DNA of 64,000 nucleotides, taken from contig NZ_QULN01000006.1 in assembly GCF_003481705.1 (NCBI RefSeq), positions 1 to 64,000 of the forward strand, written 5' to 3'. This stretch comes from Butyricicoccus sp. OM04-18BH (lineage in GTDB: Bacteria > Bacillota > Clostridia > Oscillospirales > Butyricicoccaceae). The notes below the pieces were generated by a model. It saw only the letters and a list, made by a program, of their open reading frames with translations, was not told where the DNA came from and did not search any database. The stretch's first letter is position 1; each line of letters opens with the position of its first letter. The position numbers were made by a program, and so were the translations under genes. Positions 13,455-56,792 of this stretch are shown one piece after another.

Positions 13455-14036
13455 ATGAATTTTTTAGAGGAACGCATCGTAAAAGACGGCGTGGTCAAAA
13501 AGGGCAACGTGCTCAAGGTTGACAGCTTTCTCAATCATCAGATGGATATCGAGCTGTTCGACAAAATGGGCGAGGAGTTCAAGCGCCGCTTTGCGAATGA
13601 AAACATCAACAAGATCGTGACGATCGAGGCCTCCGGCATCGGCATTGCCTGCATCGTCGCACGTCATTTCGGCGTACCGGTCGTTTTTGCGAAGAAATCG
13701 CAGAGCATCAACATCGATGGCGACGTTTACATCGCAGAGGTCGAGTCCTTTACGCACAAGTGCAAGAATCAGGTCATCGTCTCCAAGAAATTCCTGAGCG
13801 CTGACGATCACGTGCTGCTCATCGACGATTTTCTGGCCAACGGCTACGCGCTTCAGGGTCTGATCTCCATCGTTCAGCAGGCCGGCGGCACGGTCGAGGG
13901 CATCGGCATCGCCATCGAGAAGGGCTTCCAGTACGGCGGCCGCACCATCCGCAACCTCGGCTACCATCTCGAGTCTCTCGCCATCGTGGACGGTATGGAC
14001 CCGGAGACCGGCGAGGTCATCTTCCGCGAGCAGTAA
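13455..14036 (+). CDS. xpt: Xanthine phosphoribosyltransferase
   Basis: Converts xanthine and PRPP to XMP in purine salvage. It is 193 residues long, the usual size. The PRPP-binding loop is [10 protein letters not shown] near residue 120, and the N-terminal [12 protein letters not shown] and VEASGIGI-type ([10 protein letters not shown]) motifs are typical of the Xpt/PurR-like phosphoribosyltransferases. AGGAAGG precedes the start. Transcribed alone; the following intergenic repeat supplies a terminator. Regulation may involve the palindrome upstream. Confidence 0.93.
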
Positions 14037-14042
14037 AAAAAA

Positions 14043-14299
14043 AGCTGTCGCGAAACTGGCGTTTCGCCGACAAGCTGTGTGAGACTGTCGAAAAACTTCG
14101 TTTTTCCGACAATCTGTGTTCTGACTTCGCAGAACACGAGTCGTCCGAAAGTTCCCATGCGGAAACTTTCTCCCTCCAGAAGTATGAAAACCGAGGTACA
14201 CGCCCCCGGTTTTCATGAAATCGCCACGCGATTTCTATTTCATGCGCGCTAACGCGCGACTGCTGTTTTGCGCGGGCAGCTGAACTATATCGACAGACT
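14043..14299 (+). repeat. Dispersed hairpin-rich repeat, copy A, with terminator
   Basis: Begins AGCTGTCGCGAAAC and ends ATCGACAGACT, so CTGTCG/CGACAG form terminal inverted repeats. Inside are several small stems (TGTCG...CGACA twice, GTTCTG...CAGAAC, GAAAGTT...AACTTTC), an intrinsic terminator at about 14187-14213 (AAAACCG/CGGTTTT), and a GCGCGCTAACGCGCG palindrome. The same order is found in copy B at 19461-19675, which lacks one hairpin module. It fills most of the 14037-14472 gap; the rest holds only the antiporter leader. Confidence 0.8.
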
Positions 14300-14472
14300 G
14301 AGAGCGAACCATTATGGTTCGCTCTTTTTGCTGTTTTTCGGGTCATCGTCTTGACCTGTCCGCGTTTTTCTGATAAAATAGGAAAGATTTCAGCACTTTA
14401 CCGTATTCAAGCGCGCCTTGCATACGGTTTTTATTTCCAGTTTTCTGTCTGAAGGAGGAATTTCCACAAGAT

Positions 14473-31113: not shown

Positions 31114-33822
31114 TTACTTGGTGTAAAGTTTGATCTCCTTGTTGTCGTTGTTCTTGATGCGGTTAGCAGTCTCGTAAACGAGCAGTTCGATCTCGTTATC
31201 GCTGTTAACGATTACGAATGCGTTTGCGTAGTAGCCGTCGCCATCAGACAGCTCCTCAGCCTTGGACGGAGTAGCGTCGTCAGCCTTGTAGTTATCCTCA
31301 TCGATGTTGATGACTACAGAATCAGATACAACCTTACCAGCTGCAATGGAGATTACCTTGGACGGGGTTGCAACGTCAGCCTTGGTAGCGTATACGTCGT
31401 ATGCGCGAACCAGCTTGCTGGAGTCAGACCAGTCGTTTGCAATTGCAATGTAGCCGGAGTTCTTGTTGTCAGCAGTAGAGGAAACAACCTCGATGTCGTC
31501 GTTAGCCTTCTCGTAAGAGCCGGTGAAGGAAACGATCATGCCCTTGGTGAACTTGGAAGCCTTGCCGGTCTCCTCAGTCTCAACGGTCTTGAGGCCCTCA
31601 GAGGTGATCATATCGAGGTAGATAACGGTATCAGTGCCGTTAGACTCAGTGCCGCTGTAGGACTTCTTAACAACGCCGTACAGGGTATCGGTATTGCTCA
31701 GACCCTTCTCAAGGTCAATGTAAGCTGCAACTACGTTGTCGTCGTCAGCCAGAACAACAGAATTGTTGCGGCCAGTCATCTTGTCGTAGTTCTTCAGAGC
31801 AGAACCAGTGATTACCTTGTAGGAATCATAGTTCTTGTAGGAGATGAAGATCGGAGCTGCATCCTCAGCCTCAGTGCCGGAGAAGGTCTCGGTCTTGTCG
31901 TTGTACTCAACCTTAGCGCCCTTAGCTGCAACCTTAACGTCGCCAGCCTTGAAGTTCTCGTCCAGAACGAACAGAGTGTAGTCAGAGCCGTCCTGATCGT
32001 AAGCGTACAGCTTGTTAGCATCCAGCTTGGTCAGCTTCTTAGCAGTCTTAGCAGTCTCAGTAGTGCACTTGTTGTCGGTATCGGACTCGTTGTCGTTCCA
32101 ATCGTTCAGATCGAAGCCCTTAGAAGCAATTACAACGTCGGTAACGTTGATAACCTTCTCGGTGCCGTCCTCGAAGTAAACCTTAGCTTCTACGCCCTCG
32201 TCCATTGCCTTGTAGTCGCCAACAGACTTAACGAGCAGGGTGTCAACATCGCTGTTGGAACCAGACTCGCCGGTCAGGTAATAGATGTAAGAACCGTAAA
32301 CGTAACCGGTGTAGGTCTTGCCAGCCTTAGCAGTGTAGGACTTGCCAGAAGCCAGTACGTAGTCGTGCCACTTGCCATCGATCTTGATGGAGTCAGCCTT
32401 GAAGGAGTCAGCCTTGCCAGAGAGGGTTGCAGCCTTCTCGATTACAACAGCGTCGTTGTACAGGTCAGCGCCTACGAATACGTAGTCGTCCTTCTTGTAG
32501 CCGTCGTAAACTTCCGGCTCGTCATCCTCGAGGTCGAGCTTGACAGCAGCGCCGGTGGTGTTGCCCTTCATGTCGAGCAGAACAGACTTGTAGGAAACAG
32601 AAGTGCTGTTAACGGTGGTCAGCTTAGCAAAGGTCTTGTTGTTAACGAAGATAGCGTCAACCTTCTCATCGTTGTCGTTGGAGATAACGGTGATTTCCAT
32701 GTCGCTGTCCTTGATAGCCTTGATAGCAGTGCTGATGTCAGAAGCGTTGTTCTTAACAGCGGTAGAAGCGATCTTAACGTTGCCCTTGGTATCTACGCCG
32801 ATGGTGTAGATGGTCATGCCGTTCTTGTTAACGGAGTACTTGGTGTCGTCAACCTTGAACTTAGCCTCGCCGGAAACGGTGTCCAGATCGGAAGCCAGAG
32901 CAGAGATGTTAACATCGTTGTCATCGGTTGCGTAAACGCCGTAAACCTTGTCCTTGTCCTTGTACATAACCTTAACAGCCATGCCCAGGAGATCGGAGTA
33001 ATCGGTCTTGATGTCGGTGAACTTGATCAGATCGTTAGCTTCGTACTTGGTGTTCAGAACGGTCTGCTTCTCGTCAGCCTTAACAACCAGAGCCTTAGAA
33101 GCGCCGGTGTTGTCCAGGCCAACCTTACCGGAAGCCATCAGGATGCCGGTAGCATACTTGAGGCCCATGTACTTCTCGCCGATGGTCGGGTTCTCGTCGC
33201 CGTTGTAGTTGTACTTGGTGTAAGCATCGTCACGCCATACAACAGTGGAAGCGTCGATTGCGTTGTAGATCAGCTGAGCTGCGTACTGACGCGGGCACGG
33301 ACCGGTGAAGGAAGTGGTAACATCCTCGAGCAGGCCGTTCTCGTCAGCCAGAGCGTTGGTCTTGGAAGCCCAGTTGATGCCTACCAGACCTGCCTTCTGA
33401 GCATCGTAGCCGAGGGTTACGAGCAGCATCTTAGCAGCTTCCTGAGCAGTTACGGTCTGGTCCGGTGCAAACGTGGTTGCAGACTGACCAGCGATGATGC
33501 CCAGGGACTGGCAGTACTTGACGTAGCCGCGAGCCCAGTGGCCGTTGATGTCGGTAAAGGTGGTCTTGTCGTTGTTGTACGCAGAAGCGTCAGAGTTACC
33601 AGTGCGCAGCACGTAGATCATCTTCGCCATCTCCGCACGAGTTACGGTATCGTTCGGCTTGAAAGAGCCGTCGGTGTAACCATTGATTACGCCGAGGGAT
33701 ACCAGGGTGTCCACGACTTCAGCGTCGACCTTGATGTCGGCCTGATCCGTGAACGCCGCACCGGCAAACATAGTGAACGCGCAAGCGAACGCCAGTACCA
33801 GTGCGAGAATCTTTTTGAGATT
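31114..33822 (-). pseudogene. Silent SLH S-layer-type gene (start-less expression cassette)
   Basis: Encodes about 903 codons of an SLH-domain protein homologous to the gene at 35217. The frame reads NLKKILALVLAFACAFTMFAG (signal peptide without its first two residues), then SLH domains (VINGYTDGSFKPNDTVTRAEMAK and others) in the first 220 residues, then a long, diverged Lys/Asp-rich C-terminal region. It lacks the ATG, RBS and promoter: upstream of AAT at 33822 the sequence is unrelated to that of the active gene, and an in-frame TGA lies farther up with no usable start between. The first ATG (33771) would begin inside the signal peptide. The body has no stop codons and keeps highly biased codon use, so it is under selection. 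I read it as a silent cassette in an inversion switch, not a decayed gene. Confidence 0.85.
33725..33822 (-). repeat. Left 98-bp inverted repeat of the S-layer switch
   Basis: Perfect reverse complement of 35223-35320, checked base by base. It encodes signal peptide and mature N-terminus of the silent gene. At its inner edge AGAATC-TTTTTGA-GATTGC (33806-33824) has the form of a tyrosine-recombinase core: short inverted arms around a 7-base spacer. Confidence 0.95.
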
Positions 33823-33878
33823 GCAGGCAAAATAATCAATTTCACGGTTAAACCCGCAATTTCGAAAAAAGCGTTGCC

Positions 33879-33899
33879 TTTTCCGAATTTTTCGGAAAA
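33879..33899 (-). terminator. Hairpin after the recombinase gene
   Basis: TTTTCCGAA and TTCGGAAAA pair around TTT, 39 bases beyond the recombinase stop. It would limit readthrough from the recombinase into the silent SLH gene. Confidence 0.6.
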
Positions 33900-33937
33900 A
33901 TCACGCACTCCGAAAAGCTGGAATAATCTTGCATCTC

Positions 33938-34972
33938 TCAGATTTCGATGATCGGAATCGCGCTCTTGGCGATAGACTCCTTCTCCACATACGGCACGTG
34001 CGCGTAGACGTTTGCGGTCGTGGCGATATCCGAATGACCGAGCCATTCCTGAATCTGCTTGAGGGAAAAGCCCTGCTGGAGCAGGAGCGTCGCGACCGAA
34101 TGCCGCAGATCGTGAAACCGGATGCACGGCAGACCGGCGCGGCGGCAGACGCGCCCGAACTCGCGGGAAATATAGTCCGGGCGGAGCGGTGTGCCGTCCT
34201 CACGGACGCAGACATAATCGCTCTGGTGGTAGGCTTTGCCGTATTTCCGGCGGTTTTCCTTCTGGCGGCGGCGAAGATCGGTCAGATACCGCCGCAGCGA
34301 GTCCGACAGCGGCAGCGTGCGGTAGCTCGAGCGGGTCTTGACGTTATCGACATAGAGAATCCGCCCGTTCGAGAGAATGGCGGTGTGGTTGATGACCATG
34401 CGCCGCGCGCGGAAGTCGATCGCGCTCCACCGCAGCCCGGCGCACTCGCTCCGCCGGAGGCCATAGCTGGCGGCGAGGACAAACGCCGCCTCGGCGGGGG
34501 ACTGCAAAGCCGCCGCGAGGAAAACATTCAGCTGCGCGCGGTCATAGACCTGCCCGCGGAAGCGGCGCCGCTTGGGCAGCATGACGTTATCCGCGGGATT
34601 ATTCGGGATAATCTGGAGCGCAACGGCATATTTCAGACATTTGTGCATGATCGAGTGAAATTTCGCGATCGAGGTCGGAGAAAGGCCCTGCTCGAACTTA
34701 AAATTGACGAAATCCTGAAAATCCATCGGCCGGGCGGTCGCGAGGGTCATCCCCCGCGCATCAAAAAACGGCCGGATATGCTTTTCGAAAGCATACCGAT
34801 AGCCGTCCATCGTATTTTGGCGCACCTGCGTTTTCATCTGGCCGAGCCAGCCGTCCATAAACGCGGAAAAGGCGATCGTCGACTGTTCCGAGTAGCGCAG
34901 CCGCATCAGCTCCTCGGGGCGCAGGATAAAATGAATATAGCCGCCCTCCTCAAAAACGCGAATATTTTCCAT
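33938..34972 (-). CDS. Tyrosine recombinase (site-specific integrase family) of the S-layer switch
   Basis: A 344-residue recombinase with an N-terminal SAM-like core-binding domain (FMDGWLGQMKTQVRQNTMDGYRY) and a catalytic domain. Catalytic residues are visible: Arg in AASYGLRRSECAGL, the HxxR box in RFHDLRHSVATLL, His in WLGHSD and the nucleophile Tyr in TTANVYAHV. No arm-binding zinc or AP2-like domain is evident at the N-terminus, and no other mobile-element gene lies nearby. It sits between the two inverted repeats, divergent from the S-layer promoter. A role in inverting the segment is inferred from this position. It could instead be a lone integrase remnant, but it is intact and exactly flanked by the repeats. 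Confidence 0.9.
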   Translation of the reverse strand: MENIRVFEEGGYIHFILRPEELMRLRYSEQSTIAFSAFMDGWLGQMKTQVRQNTMDGYRYAFEKHIRPFFDARGMTLATARPMDFQDFVNFKFEQGLSPTSIAKFHSIMHKCLKYAVALQIIPNNPADNVMLPKRRRFRGQVYDRAQLNVFLAAALQSPAEAAFVLAASYGLRRSECAGLRWSAIDFRARRMVINHTAILSNGRILYVDNVKTRSSYRTLPLSDSLRRYLTDLRRRQKENRRKYGKAYHQSDYVCVREDGTPLRPDYISREFGRVCRRAGLPCIRFHDLRHSVATLLLQQGFSLKQIQEWLGHSDIATTANVYAHVPYVEKESIAKSAIPIIEI

Positions 34973-35135
34973 GATAAAACCTCCTGAAAGTGATGACCGG
35001 GCGAAAAAACCGCGCGAGTCACCTTTATTTTACGGGAAAACGGCAAAAACCGACAATATGAAATCCGCCGCGCGGCGGCAGGCGGTGTAATGCGGCGTGT
35101 AATATTACGCTTATGTTACATCTCGCGAAAATCCG

Positions 35136-35164
35136 TTGACCGTGGGGGCGCGCTATGGTATTAT
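35136..35164 (+). promoter_or_regulatory. S-layer gene promoter inside the invertible segment
   Basis: TTGACC (35136-35141), 17-base spacer ending in ATGG, TATTAT (35159-35164). A GAGC-GAAA-GCTC hairpin follows at 35177-35188 in the leader, possibly stabilising the mRNA, then AAGGAGG at 35201-35207 and the ATG at 35217. No equivalent exists before the silent copy. Confidence 0.85.
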
Positions 35165-35216
35165 ACTTAACGAAATGAGCGAAAGCTCAAAAAATTTTAT
35201 AAGGAGGAATTTCCCC

Positions 35217-38054
35217 ATGAAGAATCTCAAAAAGATTCTCGCACTGGTACTGGCGTTCGCTTGCGCGTTCACTATGTTTGCCGGTGCGGCGTTCACGGAT
35301 CAGGCCGACATCAAGGTCGAGAATGAAGTCGTGGACACTCTCATTGAGCTGGGCGTAATCAACGGTTACACCGACGGTTCGTTCAAGCCCAATGACACCG
35401 TAACTCGTGCGGAGATGGCGAAGATGATCTACGTGCTGCGCACTGGTAACTCTGACGCTTCTGCGTACAACAATGACAAGACCAGCTTTACTGATGTCAA
35501 CGGCCACTGGGCCGCTGGCTTCATCAAGTACTGCCAGTCTGTCGGCATCATCGCTGGCCAGTCTGCAACCAAGTTTGCACCGGACCAGACCGTAACCGCT
35601 CAGGAAGCTGCTAAGATGCTGCTCGTAACCCTCGGCTACGACGCTCAGAAGGCAGGCCTGGTAGGCATCAACTGGGCATCCAAGACCAACGCTCTGGCTG
35701 ACGAGAACGGCCTGCTTGACGACGTAAACACTTCCTTCACCGGTCCGTGCCCGCGTCAGTATGCTGCTCAGCTGATCTACAACGCAATCGATACCCCGAC
35801 CGTTGTATGGCGTGACGATGCTTACACCAACGTAACTCTGCTTGGCGACGACAACAAGACCGTTGGCGAGAAGTTCATGAACCTCAAGAAGACCACCGCT
35901 GTTCTGGAGGACGTTTCCAAGACCTCCGGCAAGGAGACCTTCGAGCTGACTCTCGACAAGTCCACTGTTGACGAGAACAAGACCACTGATGACAAGGGCA
36001 AGGCTCTGTACAACTTCACCAACGTGAAGAAGGACTACTCTGACCTGAAGTATCAGATGGTTACCGTTCTGTACAAGAACAACGACAAGTCCAAGGTTTA
36101 CGGCGTTTACGCTACCAAGGACAACACCCAGCAGACCGGCATCCTGAAGAACCTCAAGATGGACGGCAACAAGGCTAAGCTGGACGACACCAAGTACGAT
36201 CTGGCTGATAAGAACACCGTTTATGTAAACGGCAAATCTTGGACGGAAAACAAAAAAGATTCGAACAATATCAAGAGCTTCATTGATACCTACGGCAACG
36301 ACTCTGATACCAAGTACACCAACGCTGCTTACATGCAGCCGACCGAGGTTAAGCTGCTCGCTACCGATGGCTCTACCGATTACTCCATCCTGAACGTTAA
36401 GACCTTCGCAGTAGCTAAGGTTACCGCTGTTGGTTCTGACTACATCAACGTCTCCTTCAAGAAGGGCGACAACACCATCGCTTCCAAGTCCAAGCTCGAG
36501 TCCGATGACTGGGATTGGTACGACGGCGTTAAGAAGAACGACTACGTTGTTCTGACTGCTGCTGGCAACTATGGCACCGGCAACGGCCTCGTTGAGAAGG
36601 CTACCGTTGTTACCGGCAAGGTAAACGGCACCAAGTCTGACGATGGCGTTGCTATCGACGGCGAGTGGTACACCATGGCAGGCAAGAAGGGCAATATGGT
36701 TACCCGCCCGAACACCGGCGCTAACGTTGAGATGGTAGTTGTAAACGGCTACGTTTACTACACCGACACCACCGCAGGCTCCATCGACGACATCGCACTT
36801 CTGGTTGAGGCTGCTCCTAAGGGCGGCGTAAACTCCAAGTGGGAAGCTCGCATGATCTTCGCAGACGGCACCGACAAGGTTGTCGAGATCGAGAAGAAGT
36901 GGGACGACAAGGACGACGGCAAGGCTATCGCTGAGTTCCACGAAGGCAACGACGAGAACCCGAACGCTAAGGAGACTATTGGCACTGGCAACTCCTCTAC
37001 CAAGGCACAGCCGATGCTCGTATCCTACGAGGTATCCAAGGACGTTTACACCCTGACTCGTCTGGGCTTCAAGAACACCGACGATAAGAACGCTACGAAG
37101 ATTGACACCAACGGCTATGACGAGTACGTAACTGCTAAGTCCGTTAAGACCGACGGCTCTATCAAGGGCACTGTAACTCTGTCTGACAAGTCCACCATCT
37201 CCCGTCTGTACTACGAAGCAACCGGCGTTGTATTCGTTAAGTCCAAGGCTGACAACAACGGCGACGACGGCGACTACAAGGTAGTAACCGGCAAGACCGC
37301 TTCTGGCTACGATCGCACCCTGCGTGCAGCTGCAGCAGTTGCTAACAAGTCCGGCAACAGCTACTACGCACAGGCTGCATTCATCGACCTTGGCAAGGAA
37401 TCCACCGGCGGCTCTTCCGACAACTACGCAGTTGTTCTGAAGAACGTTGAGAAGAAGACCGGCACCGCTAACGGCACTGTTTACGTCATCACCGCTTGGA
37501 ATGGCACTGAGCAGATCACCGTTACCACCGATGATTCCAAGGCTGCTGACATGAGCAAGGGCGACATCTTCTCTTACTCTGCAACTGGCGACACTCTGGC
37601 TGACATCGAGTACAGCGAGAACAAGCAGGCTGACTACTACGTAACCGCTTACGATGACGCTTCTGGCGACATCTCCCTGTACAACCTTGGCAAGGATGCT
37701 AAGTGGGTTGCAGCAGGCGGCAAGGATGCAGATAAGGACGCTTACACTGTTGTTGACAGCAAGAACACTGTAATCCTGTTCGTTGACTCCGACGCAGGCA
37801 AGGGCGAGACTGGCTACACCATGGCTGATATCGACCTGGCTCGTACCTTCGACTCCGACTTCTGGAGCAAGGGCAAGCTGCCGGCTATCAACGACATCCA
37901 GATCTCCGGTAAGGATGCAGTTGATGCAAAGGATAAGGACAACACCCTGACCGAGGATGCAGTACCGAACGTTCGCGTATTCGTTGACAGCGCTTCTGAC
38001 GACCAGATCACTGTTATCGTAGTTGACGTTCAGCACGACATCACTGCTTGGTAA
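35217..38054 (+). CDS. SLH-domain S-layer-type protein (expressed copy)
   Basis: A 945-residue secreted protein. The start ATG has AAGGAGG upstream and begins a signal peptide MKNLKKILALVLAFACAFTM...AFT. SLH domains follow within the first 220 residues (VVDTLIELGVINGYTDGSFK; VNGHWAAGFIKYCQSVGIIAGQ). The remaining 720 residues are a Lys/Asp/Gly/Thr-rich beta-type region without recognised enzyme motifs. N-terminal SLH, size and very strong codon bias (AAG, AAC, GAC, GGC) suggest an abundant S-layer or outer-wall protein. The first 98 bases from codon 3 are identical to the silent gene, and the SLH part is very similar; the C-terminal parts differ strongly. A strong terminator follows. Confidence 0.92.
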   Translation: MKNLKKILALVLAFACAFTMFAGAAFTDQADIKVENEVVDTLIELGVINGYTDGSFKPNDTVTRAEMAKMIYVLRTGNSDASAYNNDKTSFTDVNGHWAAGFIKYCQSVGIIAGQSATKFAPDQTVTAQEAAKMLLVTLGYDAQKAGLVGINWASKTNALADENGLLDDVNTSFTGPCPRQYAAQLIYNAIDTPTVVWRDDAYTNVTLLGDDNKTVGEKFMNLKKTTAVLEDVSKTSGKETFELTLDKSTVDENKTTDDKGKALYNFTNVKKDYSDLKYQMVTVLYKNNDKSKVYGVYATKDNTQQTGILKNLKMDGNKAKLDDTKYDLADKNTVYVNGKSWTENKKDSNNIKSFIDTYGNDSDTKYTNAAYMQPTEVKLLATDGSTDYSILNVKTFAVAKVTAVGSDYINVSFKKGDNTIASKSKLESDDWDWYDGVKKNDYVVLTAAGNYGTGNGLVEKATVVTGKVNGTKSDDGVAIDGEWYTMAGKKGNMVTRPNTGANVEMVVVNGYVYYTDTTAGSIDDIALLVEAAPKGGVNSKWEARMIFADGTDKVVEIEKKWDDKDDGKAIAEFHEGNDENPNAKETIGTGNSSTKAQPMLVSYEVSKDVYTLTRLGFKNTDDKNATKIDTNGYDEYVTAKSVKTDGSIKGTVTLSDKSTISRLYYEATGVVFVKSKADNNGDDGDYKVVTGKTASGYDRTLRAAAAVANKSGNSYYAQAAFIDLGKESTGGSSDNYAVVLKNVEKKTGTANGTVYVITAWNGTEQITVTTDDSKAADMSKGDIFSYSATGDTLADIEYSENKQADYYVTAYDDASGDISLYNLGKDAKWVAAGGKDADKDAYTVVDSKNTVILFVDSDAGKGETGYTMADIDLARTFDSDFWSKGKLPAINDIQISGKDAVDAKDKDNTLTEDAVPNVRVFVDSASDDQITVIVVDVQHDITAW
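35223..35320 (+). repeat. Right 98-bp inverted repeat of the S-layer switch
   Basis: Perfect reverse complement of 33725-33822. Identity begins at codon 3 of the active gene (AAT) and ends at 35320; the base before and the bases upstream are unrelated. AGAATC-TCAAAAA-GATTCT (35221-35239) at the inner edge is a symmetrical candidate crossover site. Confidence 0.95.
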
Positions 38055-45831: not shown

Positions 45832-46360
45832 TCAAGCGAAAATGTCTTGGATTTTATATGCAATCTCAATGCGCTTATCGGGGTACACCAGCACCCGGTC
45901 GATCAGCAGCTCGGCCAGCTCGGTGGTCAGCGTGTCAGCATCGAAAATCGCTTTGGACGCTTCCTTGCGGCTGTCCTGCCGAGCCTGCTCGTCCTGCTTC
46001 TGCTTTGCCTGTGCCAATACTGCGGCATAGGCGTTTTTCGTTTTCAGAAGCAGTTCGTCGCACGTAGTTTTTTCCGCCTTGTAGGTATTCAGGTCGATCT
46101 CGCCCATGAGATAGCGTTCATACAACGTGCGCTTGCCATCTTGCAGCGTCTCAATCTGCTGCTCATATTCGGCGCGTTCCGGTACGGAAGCATCTACCCG
46201 GAGCGTACCGTCAGGGGCAAGCGGCGCGGTGGCTTCCATCTGCTTTTTCAGCGGTCAGGAATACCGCCTGTTCCAGCTCCGCGGCGTTCAGGCGCATCTT
46301 GTGGCAGCGGCTTTCTACGTCCGCCTCGGAATGGCGGCAGTGATACCCTTCTTGCCTTCC
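45832..46360 (-). pseudogene. 3' fragment of a serine recombinase gene, frameshifted
   Basis: The minus-strand sequence encodes CRHSEADVESRCHKMRLNAA (recombinase zinc-ribbon-following segment), then shifts frame near 46245 into MEATAPLAPDGTLRVDASVP. It ends with the leucine-rich C-terminus TTELAELLIDRVLVYPDK. These are pieces of the C-terminal half of a large serine recombinase of mobile elements. The catalytic N-terminal domain is absent and one base appears lost. Confidence 0.7.
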
Positions 46361-47730: not shown

Positions 47731-48037
47731 AACAGAGGGCCGGCGGATTATAGTTGATCCGCCGCATGCGCGCGGCGGACGCCCGCGCTTCTAGGGCCAA
47801 ACAGGCACGAGAACAGGACGGGCGGATAGCGAAAACCGCGTGGCTCATGCGGGCAGCGAGCGCAAGACCTCTGAAATAACAAAGGGCGGGCGAAACGGGG
47901 AAAATCCGCAGGATTTTTGTTTGTTTTTTCACAAAAAGGTTGCCTTGCAAAATGGGCGGCGTGTATAATAAAAAATACAAGGCCTGTCCGGGGGGATGAA
48001 CCCCGCTGACTTACACGCGAACAGAAGGAGAACAGAT
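47731..48037 (+). promoter_or_regulatory. Intergenic region with promoter of the M64 peptidase genes
   Basis: TTGCCT (47940-47945) and TATAAT (47964-47969) with an 18-base spacer lie 69 bases before the ATG at 48038. The rest of this stretch shows no gene; composition is GC-rich again, unlike the fragments to its left. Confidence 0.7.
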
Positions 48038-51000
48038 ATGATGAGAAAGAGGATCGCCGCGTGGGCGCTGACCGCCTGCATGGCATTGACCCTGCTGCCC
48101 CTGCACGCCGGGGCCGTCCCCATCAGCGGCCCGTCCGCCACGGAGACCGTTCTGCCGACGCAGGTGACGGCGGCAGCGGAGGAGAACACCGTCCATGCGT
48201 TACAGGCGGCGGAGCTCCCGGTCTACACCCTGCAAAAAATGGGGAACGACCGGGAAAATCTGGTGCTGCTGCTGTTGGGCGACGGCTACACGCAAGATCA
48301 GCAGCAGCAATTTCTTCAGGAGGCGCGGGTACAGCTTGGCCGCCTGATGGCGCTGGAGCCGTACAGCCGCCTTGCCCACCGGATCAATGTGTACGCCGTG
48401 CCCGCCGTGTCCAATGAGGCGGGACTGAGCAACGAGAACAACAAGCTGGACACCTATTTCGGCCTTACTACCCTGTTCGAAACAAAGAGCATCGGCTTTA
48501 GGAGTGATACGGACGGGGAAGCAAGGGTGAACGCGATCCGTGCCGATCTGGAGCGGCTGTGTCTGGACGAAGGGGCGTTTGTGGACAACATCCATATGTT
48601 CATCAACACCGACGCGGATGTCGGCTCCGCTAGCGGGATCTACTCCTTTTCCACCGGAGGGGCCAAGGACTATGCCATGGCCCATGAGCTTTCCCACAGC
48701 GTGGGAAAGCTGGGGGACGAGTACGGCATAGACACGAGGTTCCCCAACGTCTCCACCGGGAGCGACATCAAGTGGAAAAAGATGATGGGCTACCGGAGCA
48801 TCATCGCATGTGAGAACAACGACGGCAGGGTGCTGATCCCCACGGCGTTCAAGTGCAATATGTACCAGTCGGATCAGCCCTTCTGCGAGGTGTGCCGTCT
48901 GGCTCTGGTGCGGCGGATGTTCGCCACGGATAAGATCCAAAACGGCATGGAGCTGTATGTGGCGAACCCAGAGGTCACCACGGCGCACAACAACACTGAG
49001 GACAGCGAGCGTTACCGCGTCACGCAGGAAAACCTGCTGAAAAAAGCACCGAATATCCGTGATCTCTCCCTGCGGACGGTGATCCAAAATCTCAGTGACC
49101 GGGAGCGGAAGGTGAAGCTGGTGCTGGGCGTGGTCAAGGCGAACGGCGAGCCGCGAGAGCCATTGAAGGAGGAGGTCTTTACCGTCCCGGCGCTGACGAA
49201 GAATGGGAACATGGAGGATGCCTGCATTTATCCCACCCTGACTTTTAATCCCATTCAGGGCACGAACTTTGAAGCTGGAGACCGACTGGTGGGAGAGGTC
49301 CGGGACGCGGAGCGCGGCGAGGTGCTGGCCACCTATCAGGAGCCGGAATACGACACCTATCAGGTGGACTATCTGTTGGAGGACGGACAGTCCATCCCCA
49401 ACACCTTCACCACAGAGTTACTCCTGCCCAAGGGGTGCGGCGATCCGTTTATCAGCCAGTGGGCCCCCCGGACGGTGGGCGGACACGCCTTTGTTCGGAT
49501 GGAGCGGGAGGGGCTTGCCCTTCGCCTTTACTACCGTCAGACCGCACAGACCGTCCCGCCCGAAAAGCCCAAGCTGGAGGGTGCCGTCACCATCATCGGC
49601 ACGCCCAAGTACAACCAGTCCCTGACAGCGACCGTCACCAATCTCACACCTGCTGGTGCCAAGCTGACCTACCAGTGGTATCACGACGATGAAAGGATCC
49701 CTGATGCCATCAAGGAAACGTACACGCCCACGGCCGAGGATATTGGCAAGAGCGTCCATGTTGCGGTTTCCGCCGAGAAGTGCACGGGCGTGTTGAAGTC
49801 CGAGGAGGTTACCGTGGCCAAGGCGGACGCGTTTAAGATGGCCGACTACGATTGTCAGATGTACTATCACATCACTGAAGTTCAGAAAATCACCGCTTAT
49901 AATTTTGTTCCGGCCGATCAGGTTCAGGATGCGGTCATCAAGGACGGCGTTCGTGATATGGTGGATCCCGATCACATCATTTCGACCGAGGACTTCACCA
50001 GCACCACGTTCAAGCTGGCGGACGGCCTGACCCCGGCAGACGCGGGCAAGACCGCAAGCTGGAAAGTGATCATCACCAGCACGACCCACGGGAACACCAC
50101 CGGCACCATCACGGTCAAGATCACGGCTAAGGATGCTCCCGTTGTTCCCAAGCCTGAGCCGAAACCCGAGCCCTCTCAGCCCGGCGGCTCTACGGGCGGT
50201 AATACCGGTGGTTCTTCCAGTGGTGGCGGTAGTTCGTCCGGCAGTTCCGGCGGTTCGTCCTCCGGTGGTGGCGGTGACACAGCGTCCGCCAAGCCGGAGA
50301 CCGCCACCAAGCCGGACGGTACGAAGGTGGAGACGGTCACCAAACCGGACGGAACAAAGGTGGAAACCGCCACTAAGCCGGACGGCACCACCGTCAAGAC
50401 CGAGACCATGAAGGACGGCAGTTCCGTCACCGAGAACAAGGCCGCTGACGGCTCCACCGGCACGGTGAAAACCGACAAGAACGGTCAGACCGAAGCGGAG
50501 ACCACCCTCAGCGGCAAGGCCGTTGAGGACGCGAAGAAGAACGGCGAGGCCGTCAAGGCTCCCGTGGAGGTGGAGGCCACCAAGAACAGCAGCACCGCTC
50601 CCGTGGTGAAGGTGGAACTGCCCAGAAACTCCGGCGAGACCAAGGTGGAAATTCCCGTTTCCAACGTGACGCCCGGCACGGTGGCGGTGCTTGTCCACCC
50701 CGACGGCACGGAGGAGATTTTGAAGAACTCCGTTCCCACGGAGGACGGCATCCAGCTCACCGTCAACGGCGGCGCAACCGTCAAAATTGTGGATAATTCG
50801 AAGGATTTTGCCGATACCCGGGACCATTGGGCCAAGGATGCCATCGACTTTGTCAGCGCCCGCGGCCTTGTGAGCGGCATGAGCGAGACCACCTACGCGC
50901 CCGACAACGCCACCACCCGTGCCCAGCTCTGGACGATTTTGGCGCGGCAGAACGACGCGGACCTGAGCGTCGTCGGGAGCTGGTACGAAAAGGCGCAGAC

Positions 51001-51277
51001 CTGGGCCAAGGCCAACGGCATTTCCGACGGCACGGCTCCCGATGGCATCATCAACCGCGCCCAGATGGTCACCATGCTCTATCGCGCAGCGGGCAGCCCA
51101 GAGGTGGAGGGTGCGTCCGCGTTCACCGACATTTCCGCCGACAGCTACTACGCCAAGGCCGCTGCCTGGGCGGCGAAGATCGGTATCACCGCCGGTGTGG
51201 GCAATGGAAGGTTCGAGCCCAACGGCACCTGCACCCGCGGCCAGATCGCGACCTTCCTGTATCGTTACATGAAGTAA
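48038..51277 (+). CDS. SLH-anchored M64-type zinc metallopeptidase (copy 1)
   Basis: A 1079-residue secreted protein. The ATG at 48038 has AAGGAG seven bases upstream and starts a signal peptide (MMRKRIAAWALTACMALTLL). The peptidase M64 (IgA-peptidase-like) domain spans about 60-310 with LVLLLLGDGYT and the zinc motif HELSHSVGKLGDEYG at residues 216-230. Then come a MucBP/InlB-like strand region (YQVDYLLEDGQSIPNT), an Ig-like segment (YQWYHDDERIPDA), a Gly/Ser linker, a PDGTKVET repeat tract and three C-terminal SLH domains. M64 enzymes include an immunoglobulin A protease; the substrate here is not known. A paralogue follows 52 bases downstream. Confidence 0.88.
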   Translation: MMRKRIAAWALTACMALTLLPLHAGAVPISGPSATETVLPTQVTAAAEENTVHALQAAELPVYTLQKMGNDRENLVLLLLGDGYTQDQQQQFLQEARVQLGRLMALEPYSRLAHRINVYAVPAVSNEAGLSNENNKLDTYFGLTTLFETKSIGFRSDTDGEARVNAIRADLERLCLDEGAFVDNIHMFINTDADVGSASGIYSFSTGGAKDYAMAHELSHSVGKLGDEYGIDTRFPNVSTGSDIKWKKMMGYRSIIACENNDGRVLIPTAFKCNMYQSDQPFCEVCRLALVRRMFATDKIQNGMELYVANPEVTTAHNNTEDSERYRVTQENLLKKAPNIRDLSLRTVIQNLSDRERKVKLVLGVVKANGEPREPLKEEVFTVPALTKNGNMEDACIYPTLTFNPIQGTNFEAGDRLVGEVRDAERGEVLATYQEPEYDTYQVDYLLEDGQSIPNTFTTELLLPKGCGDPFISQWAPRTVGGHAFVRMEREGLALRLYYRQTAQTVPPEKPKLEGAVTIIGTPKYNQSLTATVTNLTPAGAKLTYQWYHDDERIPDAIKETYTPTAEDIGKSVHVAVSAEKCTGVLKSEEVTVAKADAFKMADYDCQMYYHITEVQKITAYNFVPADQVQDAVIKDGVRDMVDPDHIISTEDFTSTTFKLADGLTPADAGKTASWKVIITSTTHGNTTGTITVKITAKDAPVVPKPEPKPEPSQPGGSTGGNTGGSSSGGGSSSGSSGGSSSGGGGDTASAKPETATKPDGTKVETVTKPDGTKVETATKPDGTTVKTETMKDGSSVTENKAADGSTGTVKTDKNGQTEAETTLSGKAVEDAKKNGEAVKAPVEVEATKNSSTAPVVKVELPRNSGETKVEIPVSNVTPGTVAVLVHPDGTEEILKNSVPTEDGIQLTVNGGATVKIVDNSKDFADTRDHWAKDAIDFVSARGLVSGMSETTYAPDNATTRAQLWTILARQNDADLSVVGSWYEKAQTWAKANGISDGTAPDGIINRAQMVTMLYRAAGSPEVEGASAFTDISADSYYAKAAAWAAKIGITAGVGNGRFEPNGTCTRGQIATFLYRYMK

Positions 51278-51329: not shown

Positions 51330-54300
51330 ATGAAATACAAGAAAAGCGGCAGAGTGATGACTCTGCTCCTTTCCGCTGTCCTGACGCTCTGCCTGCTCCC
51401 TCTGCCGGTCAGGGCCGCGGGCGCGGAGACGGGCGTTCAGCTGGGCGATTACATCCGGCTGGGCAGCTACGACGGCGAGCCGATTTTGTGGCGCTGCGTC
51501 AGCGTGGACGAAAACGGCCCGCTGATGCTCTCAGACAAGGTACTGTGCGACTCTATGCCCTATGACGCGCAGACCAGCGAGAATTCCACCAGCGGCTCTC
51601 ACCGCCGCAGCGGCTACCGGAGCAAATACGGCTCCAACCACTGGCGCGACAGCGATATGCGCTCGTGGCTCAATTCCGACGCCAAAGCCGGACAGGTGAA
51701 ATGGCTCTGCGGCAACCCGCCCAAGGACGGCTATATCATGGGCGGCGGCGCGTATGACGGCAAGGCGGGCTTCCTCAACGGCTTTACGAGGGACGAGGCC
51801 GCCGCCATCAAGACGGTGACGCAGCGCTCCATCGTTTCCCATCCGGAGTACACCGCGGGCTACATCGACGCGTCGGGAGCCGACCTCCCCTACAACACCG
51901 ATATCGACTCGGTGGCGGACGGCTATGAGGGCGCACATTATGAGAACATCACCGACAAGGTGTTCCTGCTGGATGTCAAGCAGCTCTGCACCGTCTATGA
52001 AAACCTCGGCAGCTACTACATCGCGCAGAACCGGAACGGCGTCAACTGGAGCTACTGGCTGCGGACGCCGGTGACGGACTGCAACCACGATATGCGCTAT
52101 GTAAGCCCGCAGGGGAGCATCGGACGCGACGCGCCCTGCAAGGGCTACTACGGTGTCCGTCCGGCGTTCTATCTGGACGCGGCGTATTATGCCGTGACCT
52201 CCGGCAGCGGCACGGAGACCGACCCCTATGTGGGCACCGCGCCGAACAAGCCGGCGGACAGCACCCCCCTTTCTCCCGCCGAGCGGGACACCGGTGACGG
52301 AAACTGGGACGTGGACACCGAGACGTATCTTCAGGTGGAGATGAGCGACTACTACACGAAAGACCCCGAATACGCCAACGCCACCATTCCAGTATATGTG
52401 ATCCAGAAGCCACGCAGCGACACGGAGAACATGGTGATCCTGTTCTGCGCCGAGGGCTACACCAAAAGCCAGCAGGCGGATTTCATCCAAGATGTTCAGA
52501 AGCTGTGGCAGGCAACGCTGAACACGGAGCCGTACCGCAGCATGGCGGACCGGTTCAATGTCTATGCGCTCTGCACGGCGTCGAAAGAGGGCTTTGGCGG
52601 CAACACGTTTTTCCGGGCGAATACCGACGGCATTTCCACCAATTTCGGAAACTGGAGAAACCACATTTTCGAGCGCATCATAGGCACGTCTTTCCTTGAA
52701 AAGATCCATGACGCGCACATCCCCAACACGACCAAGCCGCAGGACGAAGATTACAGCCAGTATAATTATGTTTATGAGCACATCAACCAGTTCGTTGTGC
52801 TGGCGAACAGCGGGGAATATTTCGGCGGCTCCCACGATGATATAAAAAGCGGTATCCACTATATCCTGGCAGCCGCAAAAAATAGCTACTCCAAGTTTAT
52901 CCTGCGCCATGAGCTGGGACACGGACTGTTTCATCTGGGAGACGAGTATGCGACCAGCTCGACCCCCGTGGGGGAGGAGTCCTACCACGCCTCGCTGAAC
53001 ATCTCTCACACGGCGGTGCCCACGCTGGTAAAGTGGAAGAATATGCTGGGCTTCCGTAATACCTATTCCTGCCCGCACACTGACAATTCGTATGTGTACA
53101 ATTCCAGCGCTGAGTGCCTCATGCGGGATAGCACGAAAAATGAGTTCTGCGATGTGTGCACCCTTCAGGGCACCAAGCGCATGAGCCAGCTGATCTCCGA
53201 CCCGCCCGCCCTCTATGCGGCGGTTCCCGAGGTGAAGCTGTATACCGGCGACTATAAAAACCCCTCCGAGAACTCCGACGCTTACCGGCAAGCGGATTCC
53301 TCCGGCTATTGGAGGTATCAGCAGGATCGGGAGAACCGCCTTTTGAGCGGCGGCTATAAAAACCACTTCTCTCCGGACATGAAGGGGCGGGAGATCGAGC
53401 TGCGCACCATCGTTCAAAACCTCTCCGACACCGAGGAGCAGACTGTGACGCTGCGCCTGTGGGTGCAGCACGCTGACGGCAGCCGGGCGATCACGGCAGA
53501 CGGCAAAGAAATTCTGGCGGAGCAGCGCTTTACCGTTCCCGTCTGGAGCGAAAAGTCCAAGTTCTGGCCCAAGGGCGCACTGGAATACACCGGCAGCGAC
53601 TTTGATTCCGGCCTTGCTAACTGCTCTCTTGTCTACCGAATTCCGGAGAACGCCCAACTGCAAAGCGGCGATACCATCGGCTTTGAGGTGGTGGACGGGG
53701 CGGGGAATACCCTTGCCACCGACGGCACCGAAAATCAGTTCTACACCGACGTTACCATTCAATATGAATTGGAGGACGGCACGGCGATGCCCAACACCGC
53801 GCCCTCCGTTCTGCCGGTCCCGACAGGCGCAAGCGTGAACTGGCAGCCGCCTCAGACCCTGAACGGCCACGCCTTTGTCAAGAAGGAGGTCAACGGCTCC
53901 ACGGTCACCTTCGTTTATCAGGAGACCTCGGAGCAGCCGGAGGTAAAGACCTACACGGTGCGCTATGACTGGGGCGAAGCCCCCTCCGACAGAAAGCTAC
54001 CCACCGACAGAAGGGCTTATCGCAGCGTGAAGCAGGCGATGGACGCTGTGGATACCACTTTTACCGCTGATTCGACCTCCAACGCGCAGAACGGCGGCCT
54101 GACCGGCACATGGGCCTTCTCCGGCTGGGACGGCGGCACCTTAGAGGGCACGACCGTGGTGTTCCGCGGAACGTGGAGCTTTACCCCGGACGGCGGCTCT
54201 GCGGGCGGCGGTTCCACCGGCGGCACAACGCCCCCTCAGCCCGGCGGCTCCACGGGCGGCGGTTCCACCGGCGGCACAACGCCCTCTCAACCCGGCGGCT

Positions 54301-55232
54301 CTACCGGCGGCTCCGCCGTGACGCCCGCCAAGCCCGACGGCACCAAGGTCGAAACCACTACCAAGCCCGACGGCAGCTCCGTCACGGAGAGCACCGCCCC
54401 CAACGGCTCCACGGGCACGGTCAAGACCGACAAAGACGGCAAAACCGAGGCGGCGGCCAAGCTGAGCGACAAGGCCATCGAGGACGCAAAGAAGAACGGC
54501 GAGGCGGTCAAGGCTCCGGTCGAGGTCGAGGCCACCCGCAACAGCAGCACCGCCCCCACCGTGAGCATCGAGCTGCCCAAGGGGGCAGGGGAAACCAAGG
54601 TGGAGATTCCCGTTTCCAACGCAAATTCCGGCACGGTGGCGGTGCTCGTCCATCCCGATGGCACCGAGGAGGTCGTCAAGAACTCCCTGCCCACGGAGAA
54701 CGGCATCCAGCTGACCGTGAACGGCGGCGCGACGGTCAAAATCGTTGATAATTCTAAGGATTTTGCCGACACCCAAAACCATTGGGCGAAGGACGCCATC
54801 GGCTTTGTCAGCGCCCGCGGCCTCGTGAACGGCATGAACGAGACCACCTACGCGCCCGACAGCTCCACCACCCGCGCCCAGCTTTGGACGATTTTGGCAC
54901 GGCAGAATGACGCGGATTTGAGCGGCGGTAATACTTGGTATGAAAAGGCACAGAATTGGGCGAAAGCCAAGGGCATCTCCGACGGCACAGACCCCGACGC
55001 CGCCATCAACCGTGCCCAGATGGTCACGATGCTGTGGCGCGCCATGGGCCAGCCTGCGGCGGGAAGCGCGGCGAGCTTCACCGACGTCCCCACCGACAGC
55101 TACTACGCGCAGGCGGTGGCTTGGGCTGTGGAGCATGGCATCACCTCCGGTGTCGGCGGCGGTCGCTTTGACCCCGACGCCGCCTGCACAAGAGCGCAGA
55201 TCGCGGCGTTTTTGTATCGCTCCATGAAGTGA
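51330..55232 (+). CDS. SLH-anchored M64-type zinc metallopeptidase with DUF6273-like N-domain (copy 2)
   Basis: A 1300-residue secreted protein with AAGGAG before its ATG and a signal peptide MKYKKSGRVMTLLLSAVLTL. An extra N-terminal domain (about 30-310) resembles DUF6273: IRLGSYDGEPILWRCVSVDE ... NWSYWLRTPVTDCN ... GVRPAFYLD. The M64 domain follows with VILFCAEGYTKSQQ and the zinc motif HELGHGLFHLGDEY at residues 527-540. Next are MucBP-like repeats (TIQYELEDGTAMPNT; YTVRYDWGEAP), a Gly/Thr/Pro linker and three SLH domains. From the PDGTKVET tract to the end it is nearly the same as copy 1 at protein and DNA level. Probably co-transcribed with copy 1. Confidence 0.88.
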   Translation: MKYKKSGRVMTLLLSAVLTLCLLPLPVRAAGAETGVQLGDYIRLGSYDGEPILWRCVSVDENGPLMLSDKVLCDSMPYDAQTSENSTSGSHRRSGYRSKYGSNHWRDSDMRSWLNSDAKAGQVKWLCGNPPKDGYIMGGGAYDGKAGFLNGFTRDEAAAIKTVTQRSIVSHPEYTAGYIDASGADLPYNTDIDSVADGYEGAHYENITDKVFLLDVKQLCTVYENLGSYYIAQNRNGVNWSYWLRTPVTDCNHDMRYVSPQGSIGRDAPCKGYYGVRPAFYLDAAYYAVTSGSGTETDPYVGTAPNKPADSTPLSPAERDTGDGNWDVDTETYLQVEMSDYYTKDPEYANATIPVYVIQKPRSDTENMVILFCAEGYTKSQQADFIQDVQKLWQATLNTEPYRSMADRFNVYALCTASKEGFGGNTFFRANTDGISTNFGNWRNHIFERIIGTSFLEKIHDAHIPNTTKPQDEDYSQYNYVYEHINQFVVLANSGEYFGGSHDDIKSGIHYILAAAKNSYSKFILRHELGHGLFHLGDEYATSSTPVGEESYHASLNISHTAVPTLVKWKNMLGFRNTYSCPHTDNSYVYNSSAECLMRDSTKNEFCDVCTLQGTKRMSQLISDPPALYAAVPEVKLYTGDYKNPSENSDAYRQADSSGYWRYQQDRENRLLSGGYKNHFSPDMKGREIELRTIVQNLSDTEEQTVTLRLWVQHADGSRAITADGKEILAEQRFTVPVWSEKSKFWPKGALEYTGSDFDSGLANCSLVYRIPENAQLQSGDTIGFEVVDGAGNTLATDGTENQFYTDVTIQYELEDGTAMPNTAPSVLPVPTGASVNWQPPQTLNGHAFVKKEVNGSTVTFVYQETSEQPEVKTYTVRYDWGEAPSDRKLPTDRRAYRSVKQAMDAVDTTFTADSTSNAQNGGLTGTWAFSGWDGGTLEGTTVVFRGTWSFTPDGGSAGGGSTGGTTPPQPGGSTGGGSTGGTTPSQPGGSTGGSAVTPAKPDGTKVETTTKPDGSSVTESTAPNGSTGTVKTDKDGKTEAAAKLSDKAIEDAKKNGEAVKAPVEVEATRNSSTAPTVSIELPKGAGETKVEIPVSNANSGTVAVLVHPDGTEEVVKNSLPTENGIQLTVNGGATVKIVDNSKDFADTQNHWAKDAIGFVSARGLVNGMNETTYAPDSSTTRAQLWTILARQNDADLSGGNTWYEKAQNWAKAKGISDGTDPDAAINRAQMVTMLWRAMGQPAAGSAASFTDVPTDSYYAQAVAWAVEHGITSGVGGGRFDPDAACTRAQIAAFLYRSMK

Positions 55233-55378: not shown

Positions 55379-56521
55379 CAGAAGAAGAACATCCGCAAAC
55401 GAAAGGACAGCCGCTGGGAGGGAAGATACACTGTCGGTCACGATCCGGAAACCGGAAAGTCCATCATCAAAAATGTCCTCGGAAAAACGCAGGCGGAAGT
55501 AAAAGAAAAACTGAAAAAAGCCATCGAGGAGAACGTCGGCATCGACTACGGCAAAGCGAAAACCTACACCGTGGGAAGTTGGCTTGAGATCTGGATGGAA
55601 AACTACACGAAAATCAAGCTGCGCCCGTCCACGTTCAAGACCAGTCAGGGTTTCCTCAAGAACCACATCAAGCCGCAGATCGGCAGCGTCCCGCTGGCAG
55701 AGTTGACTTCTCTGGATTTACAGCGGTTCTACAAGCACCTATTGGATGGCGGGCGAGTAGACCGCATTGAGGCCAGGAAAAAGCCGAAAGGGTTAGCGCC
55801 AAAGACCGTGCGGAACATCCACCAGATGATCGGCTCGGCGTACAATCTCGCCATGGAGCAGAAGTTGGTAACCCGCAACCCGACGCAGGGCTGCGCCTTG
55901 CCAAAAGTCGAACACAAGGAGATGAAAACGCTGACTGCCGACCAACTCAGCGCCTTCTTCCAAGAAGCCAGGGACAGCGGCGTGTACGAGCTCTACTACC
56001 TTGATCTCGCCACCGGACTGCGGCGGGGCGAACTGCTGGGGCTGAAATGGACGGATGTAGATTTCGACCGCAGAGTGGTCAAGGTGCAGCGGGCTATATC
56101 CCGGCAAAACGGCAAGGTGGTCGAGGCCCCGCTGAAAACGAAAAACGCCTACCGCACACTGCCCCTGTCGGCAGACGCGATAAGCGTTCTGATGCATCAA
56201 AGGAGAAAAACGGGTAGCAGCGAATGGGTATTCCCATCGCCAAGCGGAGGCCCTATGTCACCAGACAGCGTGTTGCATATGCTCCAGCGGGTGCTGAAAC
56301 GGGCGGGGCTGCCACGGATACGATTCCACGACCTGCGCCACACCTGCGCAACTATGCTGTGCCGCCGGAAGATCTCTCTGCGAGATATTCAGCTTTGGCT
56401 CGGTCACTCAACCTATCAGACCACTGCGGACATTTATACGCATCTGGACTACCGCGACAAGATGAATACAGCCAATGCCGCAGCAGATATGGTTTTGAAT
56501 ATTATGCACAAGAACACATGA
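55379..56521 (+). pseudogene. Tyrosine integrase lacking its start (island integrase)
   Basis: The catalytic domain is intact: Arg in DLATGLRRGELLGLKW, RFHDLRHTCATML, WLGHSTYQTTADIYTHLDY with the Tyr nucleophile. The N-terminal arm-binding domain is readable in the same frame from 55379 (KKNIRKRKDSRWEGRYTVG) but is preceded at once by an in-frame TAA (55376-55378), and there is no ATG, GTG or TTG until GTG 55571, inside the domain. That GTG has no ribosome site. The gene is therefore probably inactive. It lies 185 bases from the 3' end of tRNA-Leu, the likely attachment site of the island. Confidence 0.8.
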
Positions 56522-56705: not shown

Positions 56706-56792
56706 TGGTGCCGCCAGCCGGAATCGAACCGGCACGGGTTTAACTCCGGGGGATTTTAAGTCCCCTGCGTCTACCAGTTCCGCCATGGCGGC
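56706..56792 (-). tRNA. tRNA-Leu (anticodon TAA)
   Basis: Minus-strand sequence folds as a class II tRNA: acceptor GCCGCCA/TGGCGGC, D-arm with AACTGGTAGAC, anticodon stem GGGGA/TCCCC with loop holding TAA, a long variable arm, and the T-arm GCCGGTTCGATTCCGGC. CCA is encoded (56706-56708). The island integrase remnant ends close to its 3' side. Confidence 0.95.

Follow-up and report, generated by a model that had tools for sequence, protein, structure and literature searches.

A DNA segment predicted to invert between two SLH surface protein genes, and related multi-cassette loci, in butyrate-producing gut Clostridia

In the 64-kb stretch of DNA that was analysed (the window), two genes for SLH surface proteins lie on opposite strands, on either side of a 1,400-bp segment (33823..35222, no strand assigned) that is predicted to invert and is framed by perfect inverted repeats. 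The right-hand gene (35217..38054, plus strand; 945 aa) occupies the expressed position: its ATG is found at 35217, its first two codons (ATG-AAG) both fall inside the segment, and it is preceded by a Shine-Dalgarno sequence AGGAGG (35202-35207, plus strand), read from the sequence, and by a predicted promoter (35136..35164, plus strand; TTGACC-17-TATTAT with an extended -10). The left-hand gene (31114..33822, minus strand) is silent and start-less: promoter, RBS and start codon are absent from it in the window, its first in-frame ATG/GTG/TTG is an internal Met codon at 33771, and no stop interrupts its frame between 33822 and the terminal one at 31114 (902 intact codons plus the stop). As the homology of this gene starts at codon 3, its usable frame is 31117-33822, which is longer than the listed 31114-33771. 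The segment further contains a tyrosine recombinase gene (33938..34972, minus strand; 344 aa) with a promoter-like site in front (35027..35056, minus strand; 9/12 matches, from a scan not above chance), and no second gene was recognised within the 1.4 kb from its reading frames and a reading of the sequence. The promoter scan gave 2 such sites in 1.8 kb against 1.0 ± 1.0 expected, which is near the chance number, so that on its own the scan is no proof; by eye, a similar 5' region precedes the expressed copies of relatives. The initial annotation had placed promoter, RBS and ATG before the right-hand gene only, inside the segment and together with the recombinase, and this was borne out, with a promoter-like site for the promoter.

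The segment is flanked by the two arms of a 608-bp inverted repeat (33215..33822, minus strand, and 35223..35830, plus strand; 92% identity, 1,400 nt between the arms), in which the silent gene (left) and the expressed gene (right) encode their signal peptide and SLH head. The repeat opens with a perfect stretch of 98 bp (33725-33822 / 35223-35320), the first mismatch being base 99. It had been reported as a perfect 98-bp repeat at the 5' ends of both SLH genes, with coordinates that proved exact, and it is the longest exact inverted repeat within the window; the longest ones in 5 mononucleotide shuffles of the window measured 15-20 bp. Segment-ward of the arms the homology ends sharply at codon 3 (12/60 bases match). 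The arms start with a core site in the signal-peptide codons, present twice in the window: 33797..33822 (minus strand, AATCTCAAAAAGATTCTCGCACTGGT) in the silent copy and 35223..35248 (plus strand) in the expressed copy. Taken with its 2 preceding bases, the expressed core reads AGAATC-TCAAAAA-GATTCT, possibly a pair of half-sites around a 7-bp spacer; this pairing is weak in the silent sites of relatives. The locus thus combines one gene with start signals, one intact gene without them and inverted 5' homology, features of an S-layer inversion switch of the slp/sap kind.

The heads of the two SLH proteins (first ~205 aa) are 92.6% identical and their bodies 31-33%, in line with the earlier claim of conserved N-terminal SLH parts and differing C-terminal parts. 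Both belong to the SLH proteins, each with two stretches of PF00395 (SLH); the signal peptide was read by eye, and a sequence profile of the family picks up the Sap SLH domain. In the predicted structure of the right-hand protein (mean pLDDT 75.3, pTM 0.53) the SLH head matches the crystal structures of SpaA-SLH and Sap SLH (TM 0.64-0.73 by target), and the long body is rich in beta structure. A structure search with this model gave no usable PDB match for the body fold beyond the SLH head: the 15 matches at E ≤ 0.001 were 14 SLH anchors and one with a TM below 0.1. The effective codon numbers of the two SLH genes (28.1 and 29.2) are the lowest of the 11 window genes compared (lgt was left out; others 33.2-46.0), and this strongest codon bias, that of the silent gene included, is as expected of highly expressed proteins. 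Presumably both proteins form the S-layer, with which the codon bias and the beta-rich body are compatible.

The recombinase carries two phage-integrase domains, PF00589 (E 1e-29) and PF14659, its only in-frame stop is the terminal one, and the six residues R172, K211, H286, R289, H312 and Y322 (R-K-HxxR-H-Y), which we take to be catalytic, are present in 15/15 aligned recombinases of the family. An identity as XerC or XerD was rejected on the NCBIfam equivalog cut-offs (105.6 bits against 335.15 for XerC, 95.2 against 329.6 for XerD), and that of a Hin/Gin serine invertase on the tyrosine recombinase domains. The nearest recombinases in genomes came from Agathobaculum, and one scan of viral contigs yielded one distant relative (34% identity).

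Elsewhere in the window a second, unrelated tyrosine recombinase gene (316 aa; 55571-56521, plus strand) adjoins a tRNA-Leu gene (56706-56792, minus strand); integrases of mobile elements often sit beside tRNA genes. One arm of a perfect 20-bp inverted pair (46028-46047 / 56132-56151, 10 kb apart) falls within this gene. Two tandem genes for large proteins (47996-51277 and 51330-55232) have, by eye, SLH-like C-terminal ends and share a 300-nt direct repeat (77%).

The window is closest to G001, the genome that has the A. butyriciproducens locus, with 81-89% nucleotide identity in the two best matched pieces of a neighbouring stretch, and therefore represents another species; Agathobaculum is a genus used in probiotic research. 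Among 87 genomes of the family the core pattern was found in 17 and a reversed control pattern in 0. At the fetched loci, ATG-AAG precedes 18 core copies, one per genome and with that of the window among them, and is absent from 28, a count that leaves out G028 and in which two G007 sites were fetched without upstream DNA. The pattern marks 27 silent cassettes of relatives, which are pattern-defined, and a pattern-free list shows the same start. A pattern-free search with the SLH head gave matches at E ≤ 1e-25 in 18 of the 25 genus genomes. Of its 35 places, 15, all from different genomes, begin at residue 1 and 16 at residues 2-4; the other 4 have an internal stop (G001 C4 and G024 C2) or are cut by contig ends (2). 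In relatives, too, the start-less cassettes open at the core site, within the signal-peptide codons. One silent copy of G009 has an in-frame GTG directly before the site, without a Shine-Dalgarno sequence. Genomes of Agathobaculum and one genome outside the genus hold one expressed copy and 1-5 start-less SLH cassettes, and the core sites number six in G006 and G046, four in G012 and G007, two in G001 and G009 and three in G011 (contig end). The initial annotation had described a switch between two genes; this stands for the window, which holds two, and is too narrow for its relatives, which carry up to six cassettes. Since one and the same site is used by two to six cassettes there, the two-gene form of the window is the smallest multi-cassette version. 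The non-switching contrast is G028, with three co-oriented SLH copies (L226, L227), each with its own ATG-AAG and Shine-Dalgarno sequence, and no such recombinase. The SLH pair of G009 is also enclosed by an outer inverted repeat (L009 5075-5573 / 13949-14448; 384 and 117 nt, 93%), on which a further gene pair lies, so that the palindrome is nested.

The recombinase was recovered at E ≤ 1e-75 in 14/87 family genomes. Silent cassettes are present in 11/14 genomes with the recombinase versus 3/73 without (Fisher p = 4e-9, kinship not corrected; G028, with its three own-start copies, scored as without silent cassettes) and, within the genus, in 10/13 versus 3/12 (p = 0.017, kinship not corrected). 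Among the 13 recombinase-bearing genomes of the genus, the gene is located between or beside cassettes (3), within 7 kb (2), elsewhere (5) or in a genome in which no cassette was found (3). The compact layout with the recombinase in the segment, which the initial annotation had singled out, recurs in two other genomes. In G046, outside the genus, a recombinase of 61% identity lies between an expressed and a silent copy 1.6 kb apart (core sites 1193670, minus strand, and 1195240, plus strand); in G009 one of 60% identity lies between both copies, together with a gene resembling a sugar-nucleotide epimerase. In G010 the gene directly precedes a silent copy close to a contig end, and in G004 it is 219 bp from a silent copy. 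In G001, G005, G007, G011 and G012 it is on another contig or far from the cassettes, so that the link there is one of co-occurrence, and the enzyme would act in trans. Silent cassettes without a recombinase match (G018, G023, G025) and a recombinase for which no silent cassette was found (G003, G008, G016) both occur in assemblies in many pieces. At the loci where the recombinase is away from the SLH pair, a ~760-aa secreted protein is often encoded nearby (6/7 loci: L001, L003-L007), as is an 860-aa SLH-like protein (4/7: L002, L003, L006, L007), both by eye.

We inspected public protein entries, which are gene predictions known here as proteins alone, taking the best 120 of 4,956 and the best 120 of 5,414 matches (237/240 classified). 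Among the matches listed, left-type bodies (at least 97% identical, 10 entries) start with MKNLKK in 2 (P0122, P0123), with MFAGA in 6 and otherwise in 2, and right-type bodies (at least 97% identical, 84 entries) start with MKNLKK in 70, with MFAGA in 10 and otherwise in 4. The MFAGA starts are the internal Met start, the same as that of the silent gene of the window; as the ranking of the lists by score puts the longer form at an advantage, the ratios of the start-bearing and start-less forms are not frequencies. Entry P0121 runs across a silent junction that is the same as that of the window (...NREIDYFACNLKKIL), and the silent junctions of P0121, P0124 and P0323 differ from one another, a hint that related strains have more than two cassettes. 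Two entries on contigs of 1,400 bp (P0003, P0004), equal to the segment, were set aside, as many matches have similarly short contigs. Heads and bodies are not fixed to one another: among the matches listed, right-type bodies (at least 80%) with the left head of the window comprise 13 MKNLKK and 3 start-less entries, left-type bodies with the right head 5 and 15, and the head types VDAEVV, VENEVV, VDSEVV and others combine with both bodies. Because heads and bodies are reassorted, crossovers must also occur beyond the core site, inside the 608-bp SLH-coding repeat, and this mixing fits homologous recombination or gene conversion between copies.

Two genomes of relatives that are close to each other hold one cassette in both states. 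The cassette that is silent in G012 (C1:504817, minus strand) is expressed in G011 (C56:92043, plus strand), with 98.3% identity over 2,712 bp, and the two expression sites are 94.5% identical over a 6,963-bp alignment (flank, promoter and head start). In G011 the junction falls in the 50 bp, core included, that separate AATCTC, which is of the expression-site type, from ATGTTT, of the cassette type. Within G012 the silent 504817 cassette agrees with the expressed one at 96% of the first 50 bp, and at 74, 74 and 52% in the three 50-bp bins that follow. As the homology drops beyond these first 50 bp, long homology is an unlikely guide of this exchange, except if G011 recombined with a cassette that is not seen, perhaps one with a more similar head. 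The same holds more widely: in all 32 within-genome cassette pairs compared (two locus-end-cut cassettes omitted) the first 50 bp are 92-100% identical, even where the identity at 100-600 bp is only 52-80%, as in all pairs of G012 and G011 and the four of one G006 cassette. The orientation comparison among relatives proposed earlier thus found both states, in the public proteins and in G011 versus G012, and not the window's own segment reversed.

From this we consider it very likely that the locus acts as a DNA switch and decides which of two SLH surface proteins is made, with inversion as the predicted mechanism. The recombinase would bind the core in both arms and invert the 1.4-kb segment, by which promoter, RBS and ATG-AAG would be joined to the other SLH gene and lost from the first one. 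The recombinase of the segment is the likely catalyst of the flip and would cut at the core site, and flipping would presumably take place within one clone, with one coat per cell. A second process, probably homologous recombination or gene conversion in the 608-bp SLH head, mixes heads and bodies as well. The earlier reading as an inversion switch thereby holds for the two states, the G011/G012 junction and the co-occurrence, and falls short on the head/body mosaics, which show further exchange.

The reading that competes best with a recombinase-driven inversion is that the inverted 608-bp SLH heads exchange by ordinary homologous recombination of the RecA type, the recombinase being a passenger or a mere helper. 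The 608 bp at 92% identity are ample homology for this, heads and bodies are reassorted in the population, and the recombinase is away from the cassettes in 5/13 of the genus genomes having it; however, the first 50 bp are conserved in 32/32 pairs irrespective of the divergence that follows, the G011/G012 junction falls inside those 50 bp, recombinase and silent cassettes co-occur, and the recombinase lies between the copies in the window, G009 and G046, so that we regard this explanation as improbable. Far less probable still is that a small mobile element, with the recombinase as its integrase, inserted between the SLH genes and that the repeats are a by-product: the phage-integrase domains of the recombinase (PF14659 and PF00589) and its different places in different genomes would agree with this, but the 1.4 kb hold no second recognised gene, the one viral-contig scan gave a single distant relative (34%), and the core pattern is found, in the 25 genus genomes, at SLH-head starts or at contig ends too short to tell. 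That the left-hand gene is a dead duplicate in a frozen arrangement, as its missing promoter, RBS and start codon in the window and the decay of the internal-stop copies in G001 and G024 might suggest, is hardly credible given its 902 stop-free codons, a codon bias among the strongest of the genes computed, and P0122 and P0123, which have closely related bodies with a start unless they are assembly chimeras.

The predicted recombinase-driven switch shares traits with several known systems. In Campylobacter fetus one sap promoter serves several silent cassettes with a conserved anchor part, and a promoter-bearing segment inverts, giving antigenic variation; the species is Gram-negative, its S-layer is LPS-anchored, the exchange is RecA-linked and the segment is not known to carry a recombinase. 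The likeness lies in the one promoter, the silent cassettes with a conserved anchor part and the promoter-segment inversion, predicted for the window; unlike sap, the window system carries its recombinase in the segment. In the Salmonella Hin switch a serine recombinase gene and a promoter are part of the inverting segment, which moves the promoter and not the start codon. This layout, recombinase and promoter together within the segment, is found in the window, G046 and G009, with the difference that the window has a tyrosine recombinase and the start codon in the segment, where that of the Hin system stays put. The nearest known S-layer inversion switch is slpA/slpB of Lactobacillus acidophilus, reportedly described by Boot et al. 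in 1996, whose slp proteins, to our knowledge, lack SLH domains. There an expressed and a silent S-layer gene are interchanged by inversion of a chromosomal segment (PMC6176008). One expressed and one silent S-layer-type gene that swap by inversion (predicted in the window) are the shared trait; unlike slpA/slpB, the window has SLH-anchored proteins of Clostridia and recombinase, promoter and start codon inside the segment, and its relatives have up to six cassettes. The cwpV/RecV system of Clostridioides difficile (PMC2784873) resembles the window in its surface protein, tyrosine recombinase, gut clostridial host and DNA inversion, which for the window is predicted; it differs in that a 195-bp segment upstream of one gene, with the promoter outside, gives ON/OFF control through proposed transcription termination, whereas the window chooses between two genes and promoter and start codon would move. 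In Bacteroides thetaiotaomicron promoter inversion controls the S-layer protein BT1927 and phage protection was shown (PMC12548429); an S-layer-type protein gene under promoter inversion (predicted in the window) is common to both, but BT1927 is an ON/OFF control of one gene, and the window would exchange bodies at a site inside the coding region. The novelty with respect to the known S-layer switches lies in cassettes of SLH type, a site within the signal-peptide codons, the cassette number and a recombinase that is carried in the segment. Titles and abstract openings of open-access papers, a set that excludes subscription papers and preprints, gave no report of an invertible switch of SLH S-layer genes in Agathobaculum or in Clostridia related to it.

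Seen over the family, the loci probably make up an S-layer shufflon of butyrate-producing gut Clostridia: an expression site, 1-5 start-less cassettes in either orientation, a crossover site in the signal peptide and an own recombinase family that in some lineages moved into the segment, with exactly one coat worn at all times. If so, promoter, start codon and switching enzyme travel together in the lineages with the recombinase in the segment. These commensals probably have few surface molecules more abundant than the coat protein, which is a likely target of phages and antibodies, and the benefit of the switch would presumably be escape from either, by antigenic or phage-receptor variation. 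A compact switch with its own enzyme would make the diversity of coats in the gut countable from metagenomes via one junction, and would render the purpose of S-layer variation, an old question, directly testable.
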